Assembly (NCBI RefSeq): GCF_030409225.1
Contig: NZ_JAUFPK010000001.1
Span: 1,710,733 to 1,774,732, forward strand
Direction of reading: 5' to 3'
DNA: 64,000 bases
DNA from: Aquisalimonas lutea
Lineage (GTDB): Bacteria; Pseudomonadota; Gammaproteobacteria; Nitrococcales; Aquisalimonadaceae
Shown: positions 4,936 to 61,447 of the stretch, piece by piece
How the letters are laid out: each line of letters starts with the position of its first letter
How positions within the stretch are numbered: position 1 is the first letter of the stretch
Position numbers and translations under genes: made by a program
Notes under the pieces: model-generated
What the model was told of the DNA's origin: nothing
The model's input: only the letters and a program-made list of their open reading frames with translations
The model's database searches: none

Positions 4936-6102
4936 ATGGATTTTCAGCTGAATCCGGATCAACGGGCGTTGCAGGATGCTGCGCGGCGATTCGCCCAGAA
5001 CGAACTGCCGGAGCTAGCCCGGGAGCTGGAACGCACCAATGAGCCCGTACCGAAGGCTTGGTTGCGACGCTACGCCGAGCAGGGGTTCCTCGGGGTCAAC
5101 CTGCCAGTGGAGCTGGGCGGGCTGGGACTAAGCAACCTGGATGCCATGATCGTGCTTGAGGAGTTCGCCAAGATCTCCGTGGCGGTTGCCTTCCCCGTCT
5201 TCGAGAGTGTCTCGGGGCCCATCCACGGGATTGCCGAGCTTGGTGAGCCGGCGTTGGCGAAACCCCTTTGCAACGCGGTTTGCCAGGGTGAAAGCGTCGT
5301 CGCGGTGAGCATGTCGGAGCCGAATGCCGGTACGGCGTTGACGGATCTCACGACACGGGGGCGTATCGAAGGCGACGAGATCGTCCTGAACGGCCAGAAG
5401 CGGTGGTGCAGTGGCGGAGGGCATGCCGATGGCTACTTCGTTTATTGTCGTCTTTCGGAGGATCGCGGGGCAAAAGGCATTGGTGCTGTCTATGTGGAGG
5501 GGGATCGGGACGGGCTGAGTTTCGGGCCGCCGGAAGAGCTTATGGGCTTTCGGGGTGTTCCGAGCGCGGATATCTTCCTCGACGATGTCCGTGTCCCGCG
5601 GGACCATCTGATCGTGCCGGCCGGCGGGTTTCGCCAGCTCATGGAAGTGTTCGACCTCGAGCGCTGCGGAAACGCCACCATGAGTGTCGGCCTGGGGGCC
5701 GCCGCGCTGGATCAGGCGCTGGCATACGTCCAGGAGCGGCAGCAGTTCGGCAAGCCCATCGCGGACTTTCAGGCGGTGCAGCTGCGGCTCGCGGAGATGG
5801 CGATGCAGGTCGAGGCGGCACGCCTTTTGGTCTGGCGGGCCCTCGCCGGCAGTGGAGGCGGGCATCAACTGCCCTCGCTTGCAGACACCAGCCTGGCCAA
5901 GTGCTTCGCCAACGAAATGGTGCGCGATGTATGCGGGCAGACGGTGCAGATCATGGGCGGCTACGGCTACCACAAGGAATACGAGGCCGAGCGCCGGTTT
6001 CGTGACTCCTGGGGATGGGGTATCGCCGGTGGCACCATCGACATACAGAAAGTCAATATTGCGTCCTCTTTGATCGGTCGGCGATTCAACCAGCGGAGTT
6101 GA
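4936..6102 (+). CDS. Acyl-CoA dehydrogenase family protein
   Basis: A 388-residue FAD enzyme of usual family length that oxidises an acyl-CoA to the 2-enoyl-CoA and passes electrons to ETF. Signatures include VVAVSMSEPNAGTALTD (flavin and substrate site), the beta domain ending FLDDVRVPRDHL, and QTVQIMGGYGY. The usual catalytic glutamate of the YEGT motif is absent: that place reads GIAGGT (residues 362-367). A DLER segment places E242 where isovaleryl-CoA dehydrogenase and long-chain enzymes carry their base instead. I infer a branched or unusual acyl-CoA substrate. The stop codon is followed after two bases by the CoA-transferase start. Confidence 0.93.
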   Translation: MDFQLNPDQRALQDAARRFAQNELPELARELERTNEPVPKAWLRRYAEQGFLGVNLPVELGGLGLSNLDAMIVLEEFAKISVAVAFPVFESVSGPIHGIAELGEPALAKPLCNAVCQGESVVAVSMSEPNAGTALTDLTTRGRIEGDEIVLNGQKRWCSGGGHADGYFVYCRLSEDRGAKGIGAVYVEGDRDGLSFGPPEELMGFRGVPSADIFLDDVRVPRDHLIVPAGGFRQLMEVFDLERCGNATMSVGLGAAALDQALAYVQERQQFGKPIADFQAVQLRLAEMAMQVEAARLLVWRALAGSGGGHQLPSLADTSLAKCFANEMVRDVCGQTVQIMGGYGYHKEYEAERRFRDSWGWGIAGGTIDIQKVNIASSLIGRRFNQRS

Positions 6103-6104
6103 GC

Positions 6105-7310
6105 ATGGGGGATGCGACGAAAACAACAACGGGCTCCGGCGGGCCGCTTGCCGGGATTCGCGTGCTCGACCTTTCCCGGGTGCTGGCCGGCCCCTGGACG
6201 ACCCAGTGCCTGGCGGATCTCGGCGCTGAGGTGCTTAAGGTCGAGCGGCCCGGAGAGGGCGACGAGACACGAAGCTGGAGTCCGCCGTACATGGACGGCC
6301 TGGCTGCTTATTACACGTGCGCCAACCGCAGCAAGAAGAGCTTGTGCCTGGATCTCAAATCGGACGAGGGCAGGCAGCGGGCCCAGGAACTCGCCCGACA
6401 CGCGGACATTCTGGTGGAGAACTACCGGGCGGGCACCCTGGAGCGGTACGGCCTCGGGGTCGAGGCACTACACGAGATCAACCCTCAGCTCATCTATTGC
6501 TCCATTTCCGGCTACGGCCGTACCGGTCCCAATGCCGACAGGGCTGGCTACGACTACGTGATCCAGGCGGAAAGCGGGCTGATGTCGGTGACCGGATTTC
6601 CCGACGGGCCCCCGACCAAGGTGGGTGTTGCCGTTTCGGATCTGTTCGCGGGGTTCTACGCTACCCAGTCGATCATCGCGGCACTGTATGAGCGCGAGCG
6701 AACAAAACAGGGCCGGTTTCTCGATGTGGCCCTGTTTGACTGCCAACTGGCCGCCCTCGCCAACGTCGCGGCCAACGCCATGGCCACGGGCGAGCCATCT
6801 CCGCGCTATGGCAATGGGCACCCCAATGTTGTGCCGTATGATGTGATTGAGGCCTCGGATGGACCGATGGTGGTGGCTGTCGGGAATGACCGCCAGTTCC
6901 AGATATTGTGCGAGGGCGTGCTCGAGGCACCGGAGTTGGCGCAAGATCCTGGGTTTCGGACCAATACGGCGCGACTGGCCAACCGCGAGCGGTTGCTGCC
7001 GGAGCTGCGGTCACGTTTCGCACAGGCGAGCCGTGCGCATTGGGAGCAACGCATGGCGGAGTATGGATTGCCGGCAGGAGCGCTGCGCAATGTCGACGAA
7101 GCCTTGAACTCGCCCCAGGTCCGCGCCCGGTCATTGATTCATACCTTTGCCAACCGCGACAGTACGCCCGGGATGAATCCCATCAAGGTGATCAAGTATC
7201 CGATCCCCATGGATGACGCCTCGAATGCGATGACGCCACCTCCGCAGTTGGGTGAGGGAGGAGAAGAGCTGGCCCGGCGGTGGATGGCAGAGAGCACCGA
7301 CGATGGATAA
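6105..7310 (+). CDS. Class III CoA-transferase (CaiB/BaiF family)
   Basis: A 401-residue protein starting MGDATKTTTGSGGPLAGIRVLD. Family hallmarks are the N-terminal GIRVLDLSRVLAGPWTTQ, the LGAEVLKVERPG-GD stretch, the KKSLCLDLKSDEGR turn, and GYDYVIQA containing D150, the expected catalytic aspartate. Such enzymes move CoA between acyl-CoA donors and carboxylic acids. The ATG at 6105 is chosen over an upstream in-frame start because it begins just after the acyl-CoA dehydrogenase stop, with the CGGAG site inside that gene's end. In context it probably activates the imported acid for the dehydrogenase. Confidence 0.93.
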   Translation: MGDATKTTTGSGGPLAGIRVLDLSRVLAGPWTTQCLADLGAEVLKVERPGEGDETRSWSPPYMDGLAAYYTCANRSKKSLCLDLKSDEGRQRAQELARHADILVENYRAGTLERYGLGVEALHEINPQLIYCSISGYGRTGPNADRAGYDYVIQAESGLMSVTGFPDGPPTKVGVAVSDLFAGFYATQSIIAALYERERTKQGRFLDVALFDCQLAALANVAANAMATGEPSPRYGNGHPNVVPYDVIEASDGPMVVAVGNDRQFQILCEGVLEAPELAQDPGFRTNTARLANRERLLPELRSRFAQASRAHWEQRMAEYGLPAGALRNVDEALNSPQVRARSLIHTFANRDSTPGMNPIKVIKYPIPMDDASNAMTPPPQLGEGGEELARRWMAESTDDG

Positions 7311-7353
7311 TGGTCATCCTGGCACGTGAACGGCGGCGGAATCAGGAGCCGAA

Positions 7354-8178
7354 ATGGCGGACAACACAAGCAGTGCGGCATTCAAGACGGAACAGCCACC
7401 GAGCGGAACGCTGGCGCGCGGCCTCGCGATTCTCAGAACGGTTCTGGATGCCGCGCAGCCGTTGGCATTGGCCGATATCGCCGCCGCAACACAGCTCGAT
7501 CTGAGCACGACACACAGGCTGGCGCGCACGCTTGAAGACAACGGGTACCTGGTGCGCATCGGCAGCTCCAAGCGCTATGCCGCGTCGCCCCAGGCGCTAG
7601 AGCCGCTGCCGGTCATGCACCCCATCCAGCAGCTTCGGCGCGAGGCCCGATCGATCATCGAGGGCCTGGCGAGCCGCCTGCGTGAGACCGTGGTTCTCGT
7701 GCTTTACCTGGACACGGAACGCATGGTCGTCGATATCGCCCAGAGCCAGGGTTCCCTTGCGCCCTATTACAACACCTGGCTGAACGGGCCCTTGCACGGG
7801 TCTGGCTCCGGGAAAGCGCTGCTGCTGAGCCTCTCGCCGAAGGAGCGCAATGAGCTTCTCGGGAAGGAGCCTTATCCTGCTGTAACGCCGTATACGCTGA
7901 CGTCACACGAGGCGCTGGAAGCGGATCTCGCTGCATCGAAAGCGAGGGGCTTCGTTTCGACCCGGGATGAGCATTACGTCGGTCTCAGCGCTGTCGCGGC
8001 AAACGTCCCGACATGGCACGGCAAGAGTACGGGGTGCCTGGTGGTGACCGGGCATACACGGGACTTGGACGCCGAACGGATCGCCAGCGTCGGTGAGGAA
8101 CTGGCCCGTGTGTCCGGGCTGATGCTGTATCAGGCTCCCAGTCTTAAGGCCGCGGCCCAGAGCCTCGGAAACTGGTGA
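7354..8178 (+). CDS. IclR family transcriptional regulator
   Basis: A 274-residue regulator with an N-terminal winged helix-turn-helix (about residues 20-80; ALADIAAATQLDLSTTHRLARTLEDNGYL) and a C-terminal IclR effector-binding domain (ETVVLVLYLDTERMVVD, then GPLHGSGSGKALLLSL). IclR proteins bind small carboxylates or aromatic acids and control catabolic genes as activators or repressors. It lies inside the rightward operon, 43 bp after the CoA-transferase. The probable target is the three-half-site operator between the two arms. Autoregulation through the operon promoter is then likely. Confidence 0.94.
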   Translation: MADNTSSAAFKTEQPPSGTLARGLAILRTVLDAAQPLALADIAAATQLDLSTTHRLARTLEDNGYLVRIGSSKRYAASPQALEPLPVMHPIQQLRREARSIIEGLASRLRETVVLVLYLDTERMVVDIAQSQGSLAPYYNTWLNGPLHGSGSGKALLLSLSPKERNELLGKEPYPAVTPYTLTSHEALEADLAASKARGFVSTRDEHYVGLSAVAANVPTWHGKSTGCLVVTGHTRDLDAERIASVGEELARVSGLMLYQAPSLKAAAQSLGNW

Positions 8179-57867: not shown

Positions 57868-59814
57868 TTAACACTTCCCGCGGTAGCGATAGCCGACGCC
57901 GGTCACCGTCTCGATGCAGTCGGCGTGCCGGCCCATCTTGCGCCGCAGGGCGGCGACCACGGCGTCCACCTTGTTGCTCCAGCCAGTGTACGTGCTGCCC
58001 CAGACATCATGCAGCAGGGTTTGCCGTGACACCGCCCGTCCGGCTTGATCCTGCAGGTGGACCAGCACGCCGTACTCCAGGGGCGTGAGGGGGACACGCC
58101 CCTCATCCAGGACGAGCTCGCGGGCGTCGCGGTCGAGAATGTCGGCGGGCGGCGCGAGACCGAGCTCGCGCGCGGCCAGAGTCGCCAGCCAGCCGTCCAC
58201 CGAGTCGGCGCCGAACTCGAGAACGGCGGTATGGTAGGTATGGCCGTCCATGGTCACCGCCAGCTCCGGGTGGACCTGGAAGCCGAGCTCGGCGGCGATG
58301 GCGGCATACGGTGCCAGGTCGGTCACGGTCAGGTAGACGCGGGACAGGGCCGGGCGCATCTCCATGTAGGTGCGTTTCAGGTCCAGCCATGCCGCTGCCT
58401 GCACCCCGCCGGGCCGCTCACCCTCGCTGCGCGCCAGCCACCGGCGGATGAACAGGACGCTGTTGCCCGCCGGTACCGGGTGGGTCCGGAGATGATCCCG
58501 CCAGGCGGCCGTAACGGCGTCATCGGCCAGGGCCCGGACCGGCACCCGGGCCGGGTCGAGCCGGCAGCAGAAGCCCTCGCAGCCCCCGCCGGGGCCGCGC
58601 ACGACCGCGAACGCCCCGGGGGCGGTGTCCATCCACATGCGCAGGCACTCCACGGCGCGCGGCCCTTCGTGCCCACGCGCGATCGCCTGCATGGTGGGCC
58701 GGTCGTCGGCGCGGGGGTGCTCGACCACTAGCCGGGCGGCCGCGGTGGGAAAGAAGGCCTCCCGGCAGACCGGGTTCTCGATGAGGTAGAGCATGTCCGC
58801 CGTGTAGCGCCACAGGTCCGGCCGGCCGGCGGTGCCCGCTTCCGCGGTCAGGGCACGCCAGGCCCGCCGCCGATGCTCGAGGTACTGGTGCGGGTTGCGC
58901 GCGTGCAGGGTCCGGGCGAGGGGCGTACGAACGGCCTCGTGGATGCGCAGCCCGTCGCTGGCGCTCTCGGTGAAGGGCAGGCGTTCGAGGGCGCTGTAGG
59001 CGGCTTCGGCATCGGATCCGGGGAACAGCGCCGCCAGCAGTGATACCGTCACCCGGCGGACCACCGCGGCGCCCTCGATGATCCGGCGCAGCAGCGGGTC
59101 GTCGATGTCTTCCAGGTAGACGGCGGTCAGACGGTCCATGACGCCCTGCAGGGAAGTGTCGTCGAGGCTCACGTCCGGGCGCTCGCGGAGCGTCGTCGCC
59201 GCCAGGCGCAGTGCCAGCGGATGCCCGTGCAGGCGACCCGCCATGAGGGCGCACTGCTCCGGCCGCAGGCCCTCGCCTTTGAGGAGAGCGGAGGCATCGT
59301 CCGGCTGGAGAGGCCCCAGCGGCAGGTCCAGGGTCAGGTCTTCCCAGCCCTCGCTCAACCACCCGGTGGCCGGTGGGTGGCGTCCGGCCAGGACGATACG
59401 CACGTTCTCGGTCATCTCCGGGATGAAATGCAGCCGTAGCCATGGGTCCAGCAGCCGGAAATGCTCGAAGGCATCCAGCCCCAGGACCAGCGTTTCCCCG
59501 GAATCGGGCAGGCAGTCCGCGATGCGCGCAGAACCGGGGCGCGGACTGCCGGCGAGCTCCCCGAGGGTAGCCAGAAAGGCGTCCGGCGTGGGCTCGATGC
59601 CGCGGCAGTCCAGCAGGATGACGCGCGCGCCCTGCGCTGCGGCCGCTGACAGGAAGCCGCGCAGCAGCGTGGACTTGCCGATGCCGGGCAGGCCGTGGAC
59701 GTGCGCGATCCGCGGGCCCTGCCGTTCCAGCAGGGTCCGCAGCTGCCCGAGCTCGGTTTCGCGGCCGAGCATCGCCGCAGCCGCGCGCTGTCCCAGACGA
59801 TCCGCGACGCGCAT
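57868..59814 (-). CDS. STAND-type ATPase regulator with GNAT-like middle and OmpR/PhoB-type winged helix
   Basis: A 648-residue protein with an unusual layout. Residues 1-330: an AAA/STAND ATPase with Walker A G41-LPGIGKS48, Walker B LVLGLDAFEHF (D114) and a sensor-like LAGRHPP. About 330-540: no clear family, but YLTVTDLAPYAAIAAELGF resembles the end of a GNAT acetyltransferase. About 560-648: a PhoB/OmpR-type DNA-binding domain (LTPLEYGVLVHL, SRQTLLHDVWG, VDAVVAALRRKMG, ETVTGVGYRYRG). It therefore looks like a MalT-style signal-dependent activator. Divergent from the DUF1326/DUF2182 genes, its likely targets. Confidence 0.8.
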   Translation of the reverse strand: MRVADRLGQRAAAAMLGRETELGQLRTLLERQGPRIAHVHGLPGIGKSTLLRGFLSAAAAQGARVILLDCRGIEPTPDAFLATLGELAGSPRPGSARIADCLPDSGETLVLGLDAFEHFRLLDPWLRLHFIPEMTENVRIVLAGRHPPATGWLSEGWEDLTLDLPLGPLQPDDASALLKGEGLRPEQCALMAGRLHGHPLALRLAATTLRERPDVSLDDTSLQGVMDRLTAVYLEDIDDPLLRRIIEGAAVVRRVTVSLLAALFPGSDAEAAYSALERLPFTESASDGLRIHEAVRTPLARTLHARNPHQYLEHRRRAWRALTAEAGTAGRPDLWRYTADMLYLIENPVCREAFFPTAAARLVVEHPRADDRPTMQAIARGHEGPRAVECLRMWMDTAPGAFAVVRGPGGGCEGFCCRLDPARVPVRALADDAVTAAWRDHLRTHPVPAGNSVLFIRRWLARSEGERPGGVQAAAWLDLKRTYMEMRPALSRVYLTVTDLAPYAAIAAELGFQVHPELAVTMDGHTYHTAVLEFGADSVDGWLATLAARELGLAPPADILDRDARELVLDEGRVPLTPLEYGVLVHLQDQAGRAVSRQTLLHDVWGSTYTGWSNKVDAVVAALRRKMGRHADCIETVTGVGYRYRGKC

Positions 59815-59964
59815 GGCCTACCCCCGATCATCCGATCCCTGGTGCTCCGGTGCCGTCGACTCGCCCTGTGCCGGCTGTCGCAGTGATTCCGGGAACGCCT
59901 CTTCCATGAAAGCTTAACCGTTCCGGCGCCCGCCGCCACGTCACCGTTCGACCGGAGCGGGGCG

Positions 59965-59984
59965 ATTCTCATGAAATTCTCATG
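59965..59984 (+). promoter_or_regulatory. Direct repeat ATTCTCATG with 11-bp period upstream of the DUF1326 gene
   Basis: Two perfect 9-bp copies (59965-59973 and 59976-59984) repeat every 11 bp, one helical turn, the standard arrangement for PhoB/OmpR-type winged helices. A TATACC element (60016-60021) with no good -35 lies downstream at a distance suited to activation. The neighbouring STAND regulator carries exactly such a DNA-binding domain. Confidence 0.6.
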
Positions 59985-60080
59985 GCGCCCTCACGCTGGC
60001 GGGCGCGGCGCGGGCTATACCTGCAGTACCGCGGCGCCGGATACGGCCCGGGGTCAATCCGCATCGAGGGAGGAGTCATC

Positions 60081-60686
60081 ATGGGTGTCGAATGGCGAGT
60101 GGATGGTACGTACTTCGAGGCATGCACGTGCAAGGGCGCGTGCCCCTGCCTGTTCGGCGGGGACCCGACGGAGGGGACCTGTGACGCCCTGGTGGGGTGG
60201 CACGTGGAACGCGGCCACTTCGGGGAGACCCGCCTGGACGGGCTCAACCTGGCCATGATGGTGCACGCACCGGGGAACCTGACCGCCGGCGGCTGGAGCG
60301 TGGTCGTGTACGTGGATGCGGAGGCGGACGAGGCCCAGCGGGACGCGCTGGTACAGATCTACGGCGGCCAGGCGGGCGGCCATCCGGCAACGCTGGCGTC
60401 GTTCGTCGGTGAAATCCTGGGCATCGAGACAGCGCCCATGACGTTCACCGTCGAGGGCCGTCGGGTCGGGTTGCGCATCGGCAACCACGGCGCCGCCGCG
60501 CTGGAGGGCATCGAGGGGCAGGACGGCGCGAGCGTGCGTATTACCGGGCACCCGGTCGCCATCGCGCCGGGGAACGACCTGATGGTGGCCCAGTCGCGGG
60601 AGGTGAGTCACCGCGGGCACGGCATCGACCTGAGCGTGGAACAGCGCACCGCGTACTACGGCCCGTTCCGCTACCAGGCGGGCTGA
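60081..60686 (+). CDS. DUF1326 domain protein
   Basis: A 201-residue soluble protein with the DUF1326 opening WRVDGTYFEACTCKGACPC, whose cysteines (five within the first 40 residues) look like a metal or redox site. The rest is beta-rich (GWSVVVYVDAEADEAQRDALVQIYGGQAGG). The function is unknown, but DUF1326 genes are regularly followed by DUF2182 genes, as here (29 bp gap). A GGGAGGAG site precedes the ATG at 60081. I infer a common role in the membrane, possibly metal handling. Confidence 0.88.
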   Translation: MGVEWRVDGTYFEACTCKGACPCLFGGDPTEGTCDALVGWHVERGHFGETRLDGLNLAMMVHAPGNLTAGGWSVVVYVDAEADEAQRDALVQIYGGQAGGHPATLASFVGEILGIETAPMTFTVEGRRVGLRIGNHGAAALEGIEGQDGASVRITGHPVAIAPGNDLMVAQSREVSHRGHGIDLSVEQRTAYYGPFRYQAG

Positions 60687-60715
60687 CCGGCGACAGCAGC
60701 CAGGGAGGAAAGGGC

Positions 60716-61447
60716 ATGAGTGCGCTCGGTTACTCGAAAGGGCACGCCCACGAGCTGGTGCTCGTTGCCAGCATTACGGCGGCCGCTGCGTTCGCCTGGT
60801 GGTACATGATCCGCATGGCCGGCATGATGCCGGCCATGCCCGCCGACGCTGCGCCCTTCGCCGCCATGGTCACCATGTGGGCGGTGATGATGGTGGCGAT
60901 GATGCTCCCCGGGGCCATGCCGAGCCTGCTGTCCATGGCGGCGCTGGCGCGGCGTCGCCCGGGAGCGGCGCCGGTGCTTCCGTATCTTTTCGCGACGGGC
61001 TACCTGCTGGCCTGGACGGGATACGCTGCCGCCGCTGCCGGGGCGCAGTATGCGCTGGACGCCATGTCGCTGTTTGCCGCCGGCTCCAGGGTGGAGAGCT
61101 CCGTGCTTGCGGGGGGATTGCTGGTGGCCGCCGGCGCATTCCAGCTGACGCCGCTGAAGGACGTCTGCCTGCGGTACTGCCGCAGTCCCTTCGGACTGCT
61201 GGCGGCCGGTCCCCCGGAAGGCATACGGGCGACCGTCGGCCTGGGCCTGCGCCAGGGGCTGTATTGCATCGGCTGCTGCTGGGCGCTGATGCTGCTCATG
61301 TTCGTCTTCGGCGTCATGAACCTGGCCTGGATGGCCCTGCTTACGCTGCTGATCCTGGTGGAGAAGCTCGCGGGCGGGCGCTGGCACCTGGTCCGCTGGG
61401 TGGGGGTGGCGCTGATGATCGGCGGCGTCTGGCTCATGCTCGCCTGA
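60716..61447 (+). CDS. DUF2182 family integral membrane protein (predicted metal-binding)
   Basis: A 243-residue protein of about seven membrane helices. The methionine-rich segments MIRMAGMMPAMP and MWAVMMVAMMLPGAMPSLLSM are typical of DUF2182, as is GLRQGLYCIGCCWALMLLMFVFGVMN with its cysteine pair. Methionine and cysteine in membranes suggest copper or another soft metal, but this is inference. It is the second gene after DUF1326; a GGGAGG site precedes it. It ends 8 bp from the convergent DUF488 stop. Confidence 0.9.
   Translation: MSALGYSKGHAHELVLVASITAAAAFAWWYMIRMAGMMPAMPADAAPFAAMVTMWAVMMVAMMLPGAMPSLLSMAALARRRPGAAPVLPYLFATGYLLAWTGYAAAAAGAQYALDAMSLFAAGSRVESSVLAGGLLVAAGAFQLTPLKDVCLRYCRSPFGLLAAGPPEGIRATVGLGLRQGLYCIGCCWALMLLMFVFGVMNLAWMALLTLLILVEKLAGGRWHLVRWVGVALMIGGVWLMLA

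Follow-up and report, generated by a model that had tools for sequence, protein, structure and literature searches.

Organization of the locus

The stretch of Aquisalimonas lutea DNA analyzed here, referred to as the window (64,000 nucleotides; contig NZ_JAUFPK010000001.1, positions 1,710,733 to 1,774,732), carries a gene for a STAND ATPase regulator with a C-terminal winged helix that faces a DUF1326-DUF2182 gene pair across a gap of 266 bp, in which three tandem 11-bp direct repeats are found (Table 1). As judged from sequence comparison, the regulator very probably binds these CTCAT repeats, placed 11 bases apart. The three genes lie where the initial annotation had located them. That annotation had also reported a two-copy 11-bp repeat in the gap, and both copies are present as ATTCTCATG-AA-ATTCTCATG at 59965-59984, the only match of this pattern in the window at up to three mismatches (none was found in 100 shuffled sequences), together with a third, weaker unit, GCCCTCACGCT, at 59987-59997, that had been overlooked and is kept in relatives. 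The three-unit pattern occurs once in the whole genome (4.2 Mb, 16 contigs) at up to three mismatches. By their distance to the -10-like element, the repeats would extend from about -63 to -31, their third unit falling on the -35 position, a placement suited to activation, as had been proposed.

Table 1. Position of the regulator, the predicted operator and promoter element, and the gene pair in the window.
Feature	Position	Strand	Description
STAND regulator gene	57868..59814	-	648 aa; NOD/STAND core ~10-360, GNAT-fold ~362-550, OmpR/PhoB-type winged helix ~560-646
Predicted operator	59965..59997	+	three tandem 11-bp direct repeats, ATTCTCATGAA ATTCTCATGGC GCCCTCACGCT
-10-like TATACC	60016..60021	+	18 bp downstream of third repeat
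DUF1326 protein (PF07040)	60081..60686	+	201 aa; Pfam 8e-54
DUF2182 / PpoB2-like membrane protein (PF09948)	60716..61447	+	243 aa; Pfam 3e-57

Domain structure of the regulator

The domains and folds of the regulator were established computationally. Pfam places AAA_16 (AAA/STAND P-loop domain) at residues 16-80 and Trans_reg_C at residues 573-643 (5.5e-17). The AlphaFold2 model of the whole protein, built from 48 sequences, reached a predicted local distance difference test score (pLDDT) of 85.5 and a predicted template modelling score of 0.78. The top fold match of the core is MalT (8bob_C; Z 24.6, root mean square deviation 5.3, 341 residues), followed by Apaf-1 (Z 22.2), TPR-STAND (20.8) and plant NB-ARC/NLR proteins, which identifies the core as a NOD fold. 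The key letters of the STAND motifs, namely Walker A, Walker B, the GxP-type motif (GHPLAL) and the winged-helix His, are retained in 90% or more of the 48 aligned rows. At the other end of the protein, residues 556-648 match CovR, ArlR and PhoB, the complex of PhoB with pho-box DNA (1gxp) being matched with Z 14.2 and 1.9 Å over 93 residues. The assignment to PF00486, backed by the domain match, the fold and the profile matches, bears out the OmpR/PhoB-like winged helix first read from the sequence. The NCBIfam response-regulator models, among the matches listed, cover only this C-terminal end, and neither a receiver domain nor BTA or TPR was matched by Pfam in the regulator up to E 1. With Trans_reg_C at its C-terminus, the protein does not carry the LuxR-type C-terminal helix-turn-helix of MalT/LAL-type regulators, nor does it have the N-terminal OmpR-type domain followed by BTA that defines a SARP.

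The middle domain, described at the outset as possibly GNAT-like, does adopt that fold. Folded alone it gave a pLDDT of 94.0, and acetyltransferases make up most of its 50 best PDB matches (best E 1.9e-6, template modelling score ~0.5-0.6). The usual acetyl-CoA motif of GNAT acetyltransferases, [QR]xxGx[GA], is seen in this region in only 2 of the 48 sequences, and the window protein is without it. The domain has therefore probably lost its usual chemistry and may act as a sensor.

Conservation of the operator in regulator-DUF loci

Relatives were sought in the order Nitrococcales (54 genomes), in a class set of 369 genomes that includes that of A. lutea, and in a species-genome collection. 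The window protein alone as query retrieved no relative from the last of these; a scan with an alignment of the sensor part yielded 53 loci, a list that was derived from two peptide patterns and 80 candidate stretches and is no census. Neighboring genes were taken from open reading frames filtered by frame composition. A winged helix is present at 50 of the 53 loci, and DUF1326-DUF2182 lies divergent to the regulator at 23 (one of them genome G052 of the order again, as L040) and downstream on the same strand at two (L070, L072). Together with the window and L037, this makes 25 divergent loci. Of the 53 loci, 47 entered, beside the window protein, the alignment of 48 rows used for the model and the tree; L055 and L091 were excluded for their split frames, L088 as truncated, and L057, L077 and L079 for want of a winged helix, and L037 was not added. 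The regulator frame is split in L055 of Marinobacter salarius (5977-7728 and 7542-7967) and in L091 by a frameshift or a sequencing error.

Four of the 54 genomes of the order, that of A. lutea among them, encode the sensor part. G037 (57% identity) and G052 (52%) show the same divergent arrangement and triple repeat as the window. The protein of G006 (30%) ends in another domain, and the 4.6 kb examined around it holds neither the DUF pair (by inspection) nor an exact repeat pair, the DUF pair of this genome being located elsewhere. Conservation of the operator, of its spacing and of the gene order is directly observed: regulator, repeat and DUF1326-DUF2182 occur together in all 25 divergent loci, with sensor parts down to ~47% identity to that of the window, so that the co-occurrence in other genomes called for by the initial annotation was found. 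The CTCA of units 1 and 2 is invariant (25/25), and unit 3 reads TCA, then mostly C, in 24 of the 25, L042 of Halomonas beimenensis being out of register. Downstream, CTATA is seen in 21 loci, with its TATA placed 18 bp (20 loci) or 19 bp (one locus) past the repeats. The best template scores of 27 upstream regions were 14-22 of a possible 22, against at most 16 in 2700 dinucleotide-preserving shuffles. A motif-free periodicity test returned a lag of 11 in 17 of the 27 loci versus 0-4 at the other lags between 6 and 24, and CTCA pairs stand at 11 bp in 24/24 divergent loci (the window not counted) versus at most 7 at any other spacing in that range.

The operator follows the regulator

The 15 DUF1326 matches of the order are distributed over 12 of the 54 genomes, and DUF2182 adjoins 14 of them. 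The regulator accompanies only three; DUF1326 thus occurs without it at 12 of 15 loci, which qualifies the view of regulator and DUF genes as one unit. All three regulator-linked loci have operator scores of 37.7-43.4 (the matrix was built in part from their sites), whereas the 12 regulator-free loci score 4.1 or less and lack the operator. Both kinds of locus are present in G052. In 23 further regulator genomes a site was seen at up to three mismatches in 20 and at up to two in 18, most of these sites being already in the motif set and 2 of 24 lying away from the regulator, while the reversed pattern (up to three mismatches) was found in none. A site at up to two mismatches occurs in only 6 of the 368 other class genomes (7/369 with A. 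lutea; reversed pattern, 1). The repeat follows the regulator, not the DUF genes.

These distributions bear on the possibility that the repeats are bound by some other winged-helix regulator, such as a classical response regulator of the PhoB kind, the STAND gene being a mere neighbor. OmpR-family regulators do bind 11-bp direct repeats, and all 14 genomes of the taxonomic family contain at least one match to the regulator protein (P0001), many of them to its winged-helix end only, as such regulators would. Against it stand the restriction of the operator to the regulator-linked DUF1326 loci of the order, its frequency in regulator genomes compared with the rest of the class, and the nine loci that have the core without this winged helix (L057, L077, L079, L006, L093-L097), where the 3.4-13.7 kb examined contain no exact CTCA pair at 11 bp between genes. 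The only exact pair among these nine is inside the L093 gene. This explanation is considered improbable; the repeats accompany the OmpR/PhoB-type winged helix, and binding by the STAND regulator itself is predicted from sequence.

A second possibility, that the pieces travel together by recent horizontal transfer and that their conservation says little on function, is thought very improbable. The regulator is found in only one of the five genus genomes examined (A. lutea itself), which indicates patchy gain or loss. However, CTCA with its 11-bp spacing persists among homologues of ~38-57% identity from several phyla, while the surrounding bases and the neighboring genes change.

The DUF1326-DUF2182 pair

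The Cys/Met-rich segments that had been pointed out in a soluble and a membrane protein are kept in the three aligned sequences of each family: Cys15, 17, 21, 23 and 34 of DUF1326 are invariant, and the Met- and Cys-rich segments of DUF2182 are retained. A search of solved structures with a three-row DUF1326 profile gave no match up to E 0.1. The match to PF09948 (193.9 bits, cut-off 28.7) falls in a family that Pfam now names PpoB2, 'copper chaperone'. A second PpoB2/DUF2182 gene of the A. lutea genome (L002, C1:1693745-1694308) is located ~17 kb before the window, next to what we take to be a DUF899-like protein and VOC-like small proteins; the STAND regulator is not present within the 3.6 kb examined around it. 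G052 likewise contains a second DUF1326-DUF2182 pair (L138, C103:65810-66340), without regulator or operator, with which the function of the regulated pair could naturally be compared. In Marinomonas, PpoB2 takes part in the transfer of copper to a tyrosinase (PMC2855505), and copper handling by the DUF pair is therefore likely. We infer that the two proteins are probably the soluble and the membrane partner of a copper-handling pair. The likeness to PpoB2 of Marinomonas mediterranea (COG5486) lies in the shared Pfam family, whereas PpoB2 belongs to an operon with the tyrosinase PpoB1; the window gene is instead paired with DUF1326, opposite a divergent STAND regulator.

Occurrence of the repeat at loci with other neighbors

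Other genes adjoin the regulator at the 28 loci that lack the DUF pair. A YdhR-like monooxygenase is found at 11 (L062, L065-L069, L073, L074, L076, L089, L091) and a truncated globin at seven (L075, L080, L082-L086), both names deriving from similarity between loci and from Pfam on L091, L066 and L083. SnoaL adjoins L078 and L090, and a tautomerase adjoins L061. Exact CTCA pairs at 11 bp stand near the regulator in 18 of the 28, mostly with the start of the neighbor downstream, and five more loci (L061, L062, L064, L065, L091) show weaker, one-mismatch pairs at fitting places. Neither a winged helix nor an exact pair is present at L057, L077 and L079. Over the 30 loci outside the motif definition (the 28 plus L070 and L072), a CTCA pair was counted at 11 bp in 18, at 22 bp (two periods) in nine and at any other spacing between 6 and 24 in at most three; L070 is included in the 11-bp count, whereas L068, with its pair further out, escaped it.

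Since the operator signature is readable, the regulon can be predicted in carrier genomes, and remote sites were found in this way. A third operator of G052 lies upstream of a truncated globin (PF01152; L101, 1019-1390, - strand). In Planctomycetes the regulator has a member of this family as its neighbor, and the G052 gene is predicted to belong to the regulon. A remote site of Halomonas jincaotanensis is followed by a cupin whose start resembles a signal peptide. Cupins are also found after an operator at L090, where the Pfam match is at the cut-off, and at L071, there as the second gene. At L053 a triple operator is placed 2.6 kb away. The operator is further found upstream of one secreted-looking family, with the motif EALSAAPPQVA, in four genomes (L039 8116, L040 8079, L045 7198, L053 3499). 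This family has no Pfam match in the two members scanned (L039, L040) and occurs in 7 of the 21 genomes searched, its four close copies having the operator; the A. lutea genome is without a member.

Other outputs of the core

In L057 the core is fused to a protein kinase (Pfam). Other ends, read by eye, are LuxR-type (L093, L096), a class III cyclase (L079), short helix-turn-helix-like (L006, L094, L095) or none (L077), L097 being a partial match, and some of these relatives also have a GNAT-like part. In the tree of the 48 regulators the neighbor types, as assigned by the analyst, cluster by clade, with 8 changes, the minimum possible, against a mean of 23.2 after shuffling, and the globin clade is supported at 100/100. 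Two regulators, from metagenome bins titled Bordetella parapertussis (L080, L082), group with those of Planctomycetes and an uncultured beta proteobacterium, the only other members of their clade; the names of these bins look doubtful. A single plasmid relative was seen at E 1e-30, a Nostoc 'ATP-binding protein' (28% identical). An anti-phage role was considered and rejected, PADLOC returning only one weak P-loop match (18.8 bits).

A wider reading, to which an even chance is given, is that of an undescribed cross-phylum sensor family in which the STAND ATPase and the pseudo-GNAT domain would serve as a portable receptor. Its winged-helix members would keep CTCAT-type repeats every 11 bp (exact pairs in five phyla, seven with the one-mismatch loci), with the target swapped by clade (DUF1326-DUF2182, YdhR, truncated globin, SnoaL/cupin, tautomerase), the same core would in other branches have a LuxR-type domain, protein kinase or nucleotide cyclase as its output, and all would answer one shared stress signal, perhaps via the GNAT pocket.

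Comparison with known systems

The regulator resembles MalT, the maltose activator of E. coli, in being a STAND transcription factor, MalT being also the top fold match of its core, and differs from it in that MalT has a LuxR-type helix-turn-helix end and a TPR-like sensor. With PhoB and OmpR it has in common the winged-helix fold and 11-bp direct-repeat sites, but it shows no receiver match and its core is a STAND ATPase. It also resembles AfsR, a large SARP of Streptomyces, described as a STAND/NOD protein with an OmpR-type DNA-binding domain whose afs box consists of two 11-bp direct repeats, one over the -35 element and the upstream repeat spanning -40 to -30 (PMC10936776). In AfsR, however, the DNA-binding domain is N-terminal and is followed by BTA, NOD and TPR, whereas in the window protein it is C-terminal, behind the GNAT fold. 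The unit had initially been called apparently undescribed. This holds insofar as no mention of DUF1326, DUF2182, COG5588, PF09948 or PF07040 was found in the literature searched, which leaves aside most subscription journals, and no description of a STAND protein with a GNAT, OmpR or winged-helix part in the titles or abstract openings of the papers listed from the same literature; it has to be qualified in that the DUF2182 family is known through PpoB2 and that AfsR is a precedent for a STAND protein with an OmpR-type helix and 11-bp repeats.

Proposed mode of action

From the above, we infer binding, the direction of control and oligomerization on DNA as follows. The regulator is, with high probability, a one-component STAND activator, which turns on DUF1326-DUF2182 from the tandem repeats to which it binds. 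The resting, ADP-bound protein would meet its signal, exchange the nucleotide and assemble head to tail, an arrangement that the three tandem direct repeats suit; STAND proteins are described as multimerizing when the NOD goes from the ADP to the ATP form (PMC4381067, PMC6468293). The C-terminal winged helices of successive protomers would then dock on the three repeats, the last of which would overlap the -35 position of a promoter whose recognizable element is the -10, and the docked regulators would recruit RNA polymerase to transcribe the pair. If the protein were instead a repressor, the resting form would sit on the repeats by the promoter until released by the signal, as would fit a site that abuts the promoter and a direction of control that is here read from position. 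This is judged unlikely, since all repeats precede the -10 and the third one occupies the -35 position, similar to the upstream repeat in the afs box of the activator AfsR (PMC10936776).

Several observations weigh against the activator reading or its extension to other genes. The choice of activation over repression draws on position only. Five of the 27 template scores (14-16) are inside the top range of the shuffles, which reach 16, and are thus not significant by themselves. The sites of G037, G422, G439 and G440 are outside the three-mismatch pattern. Among the loci without the DUF pair, the five one-mismatch loci have no better pairs, and such pairs also occur elsewhere in them, and L088, with its truncated gene, is without the repeat. 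The three distant homologues of the secreted-looking family (43-57%, L151-L153) lack the operator. A remote match, L125, examined as a regulon site, was discarded as a poor match with no credible gene behind it that looks like chance.

The locus ties an uncharacterized regulator family to a readable DNA signature and provides a regulatory context for DUF1326 and for some DUF2182 proteins. It is also a case in which an operator is kept while targets and outputs are swapped. With a DNA site that probably accommodates three protomers arranged head to tail, this bacterial STAND system would be useful for understanding how STAND/NLR oligomers are read out.

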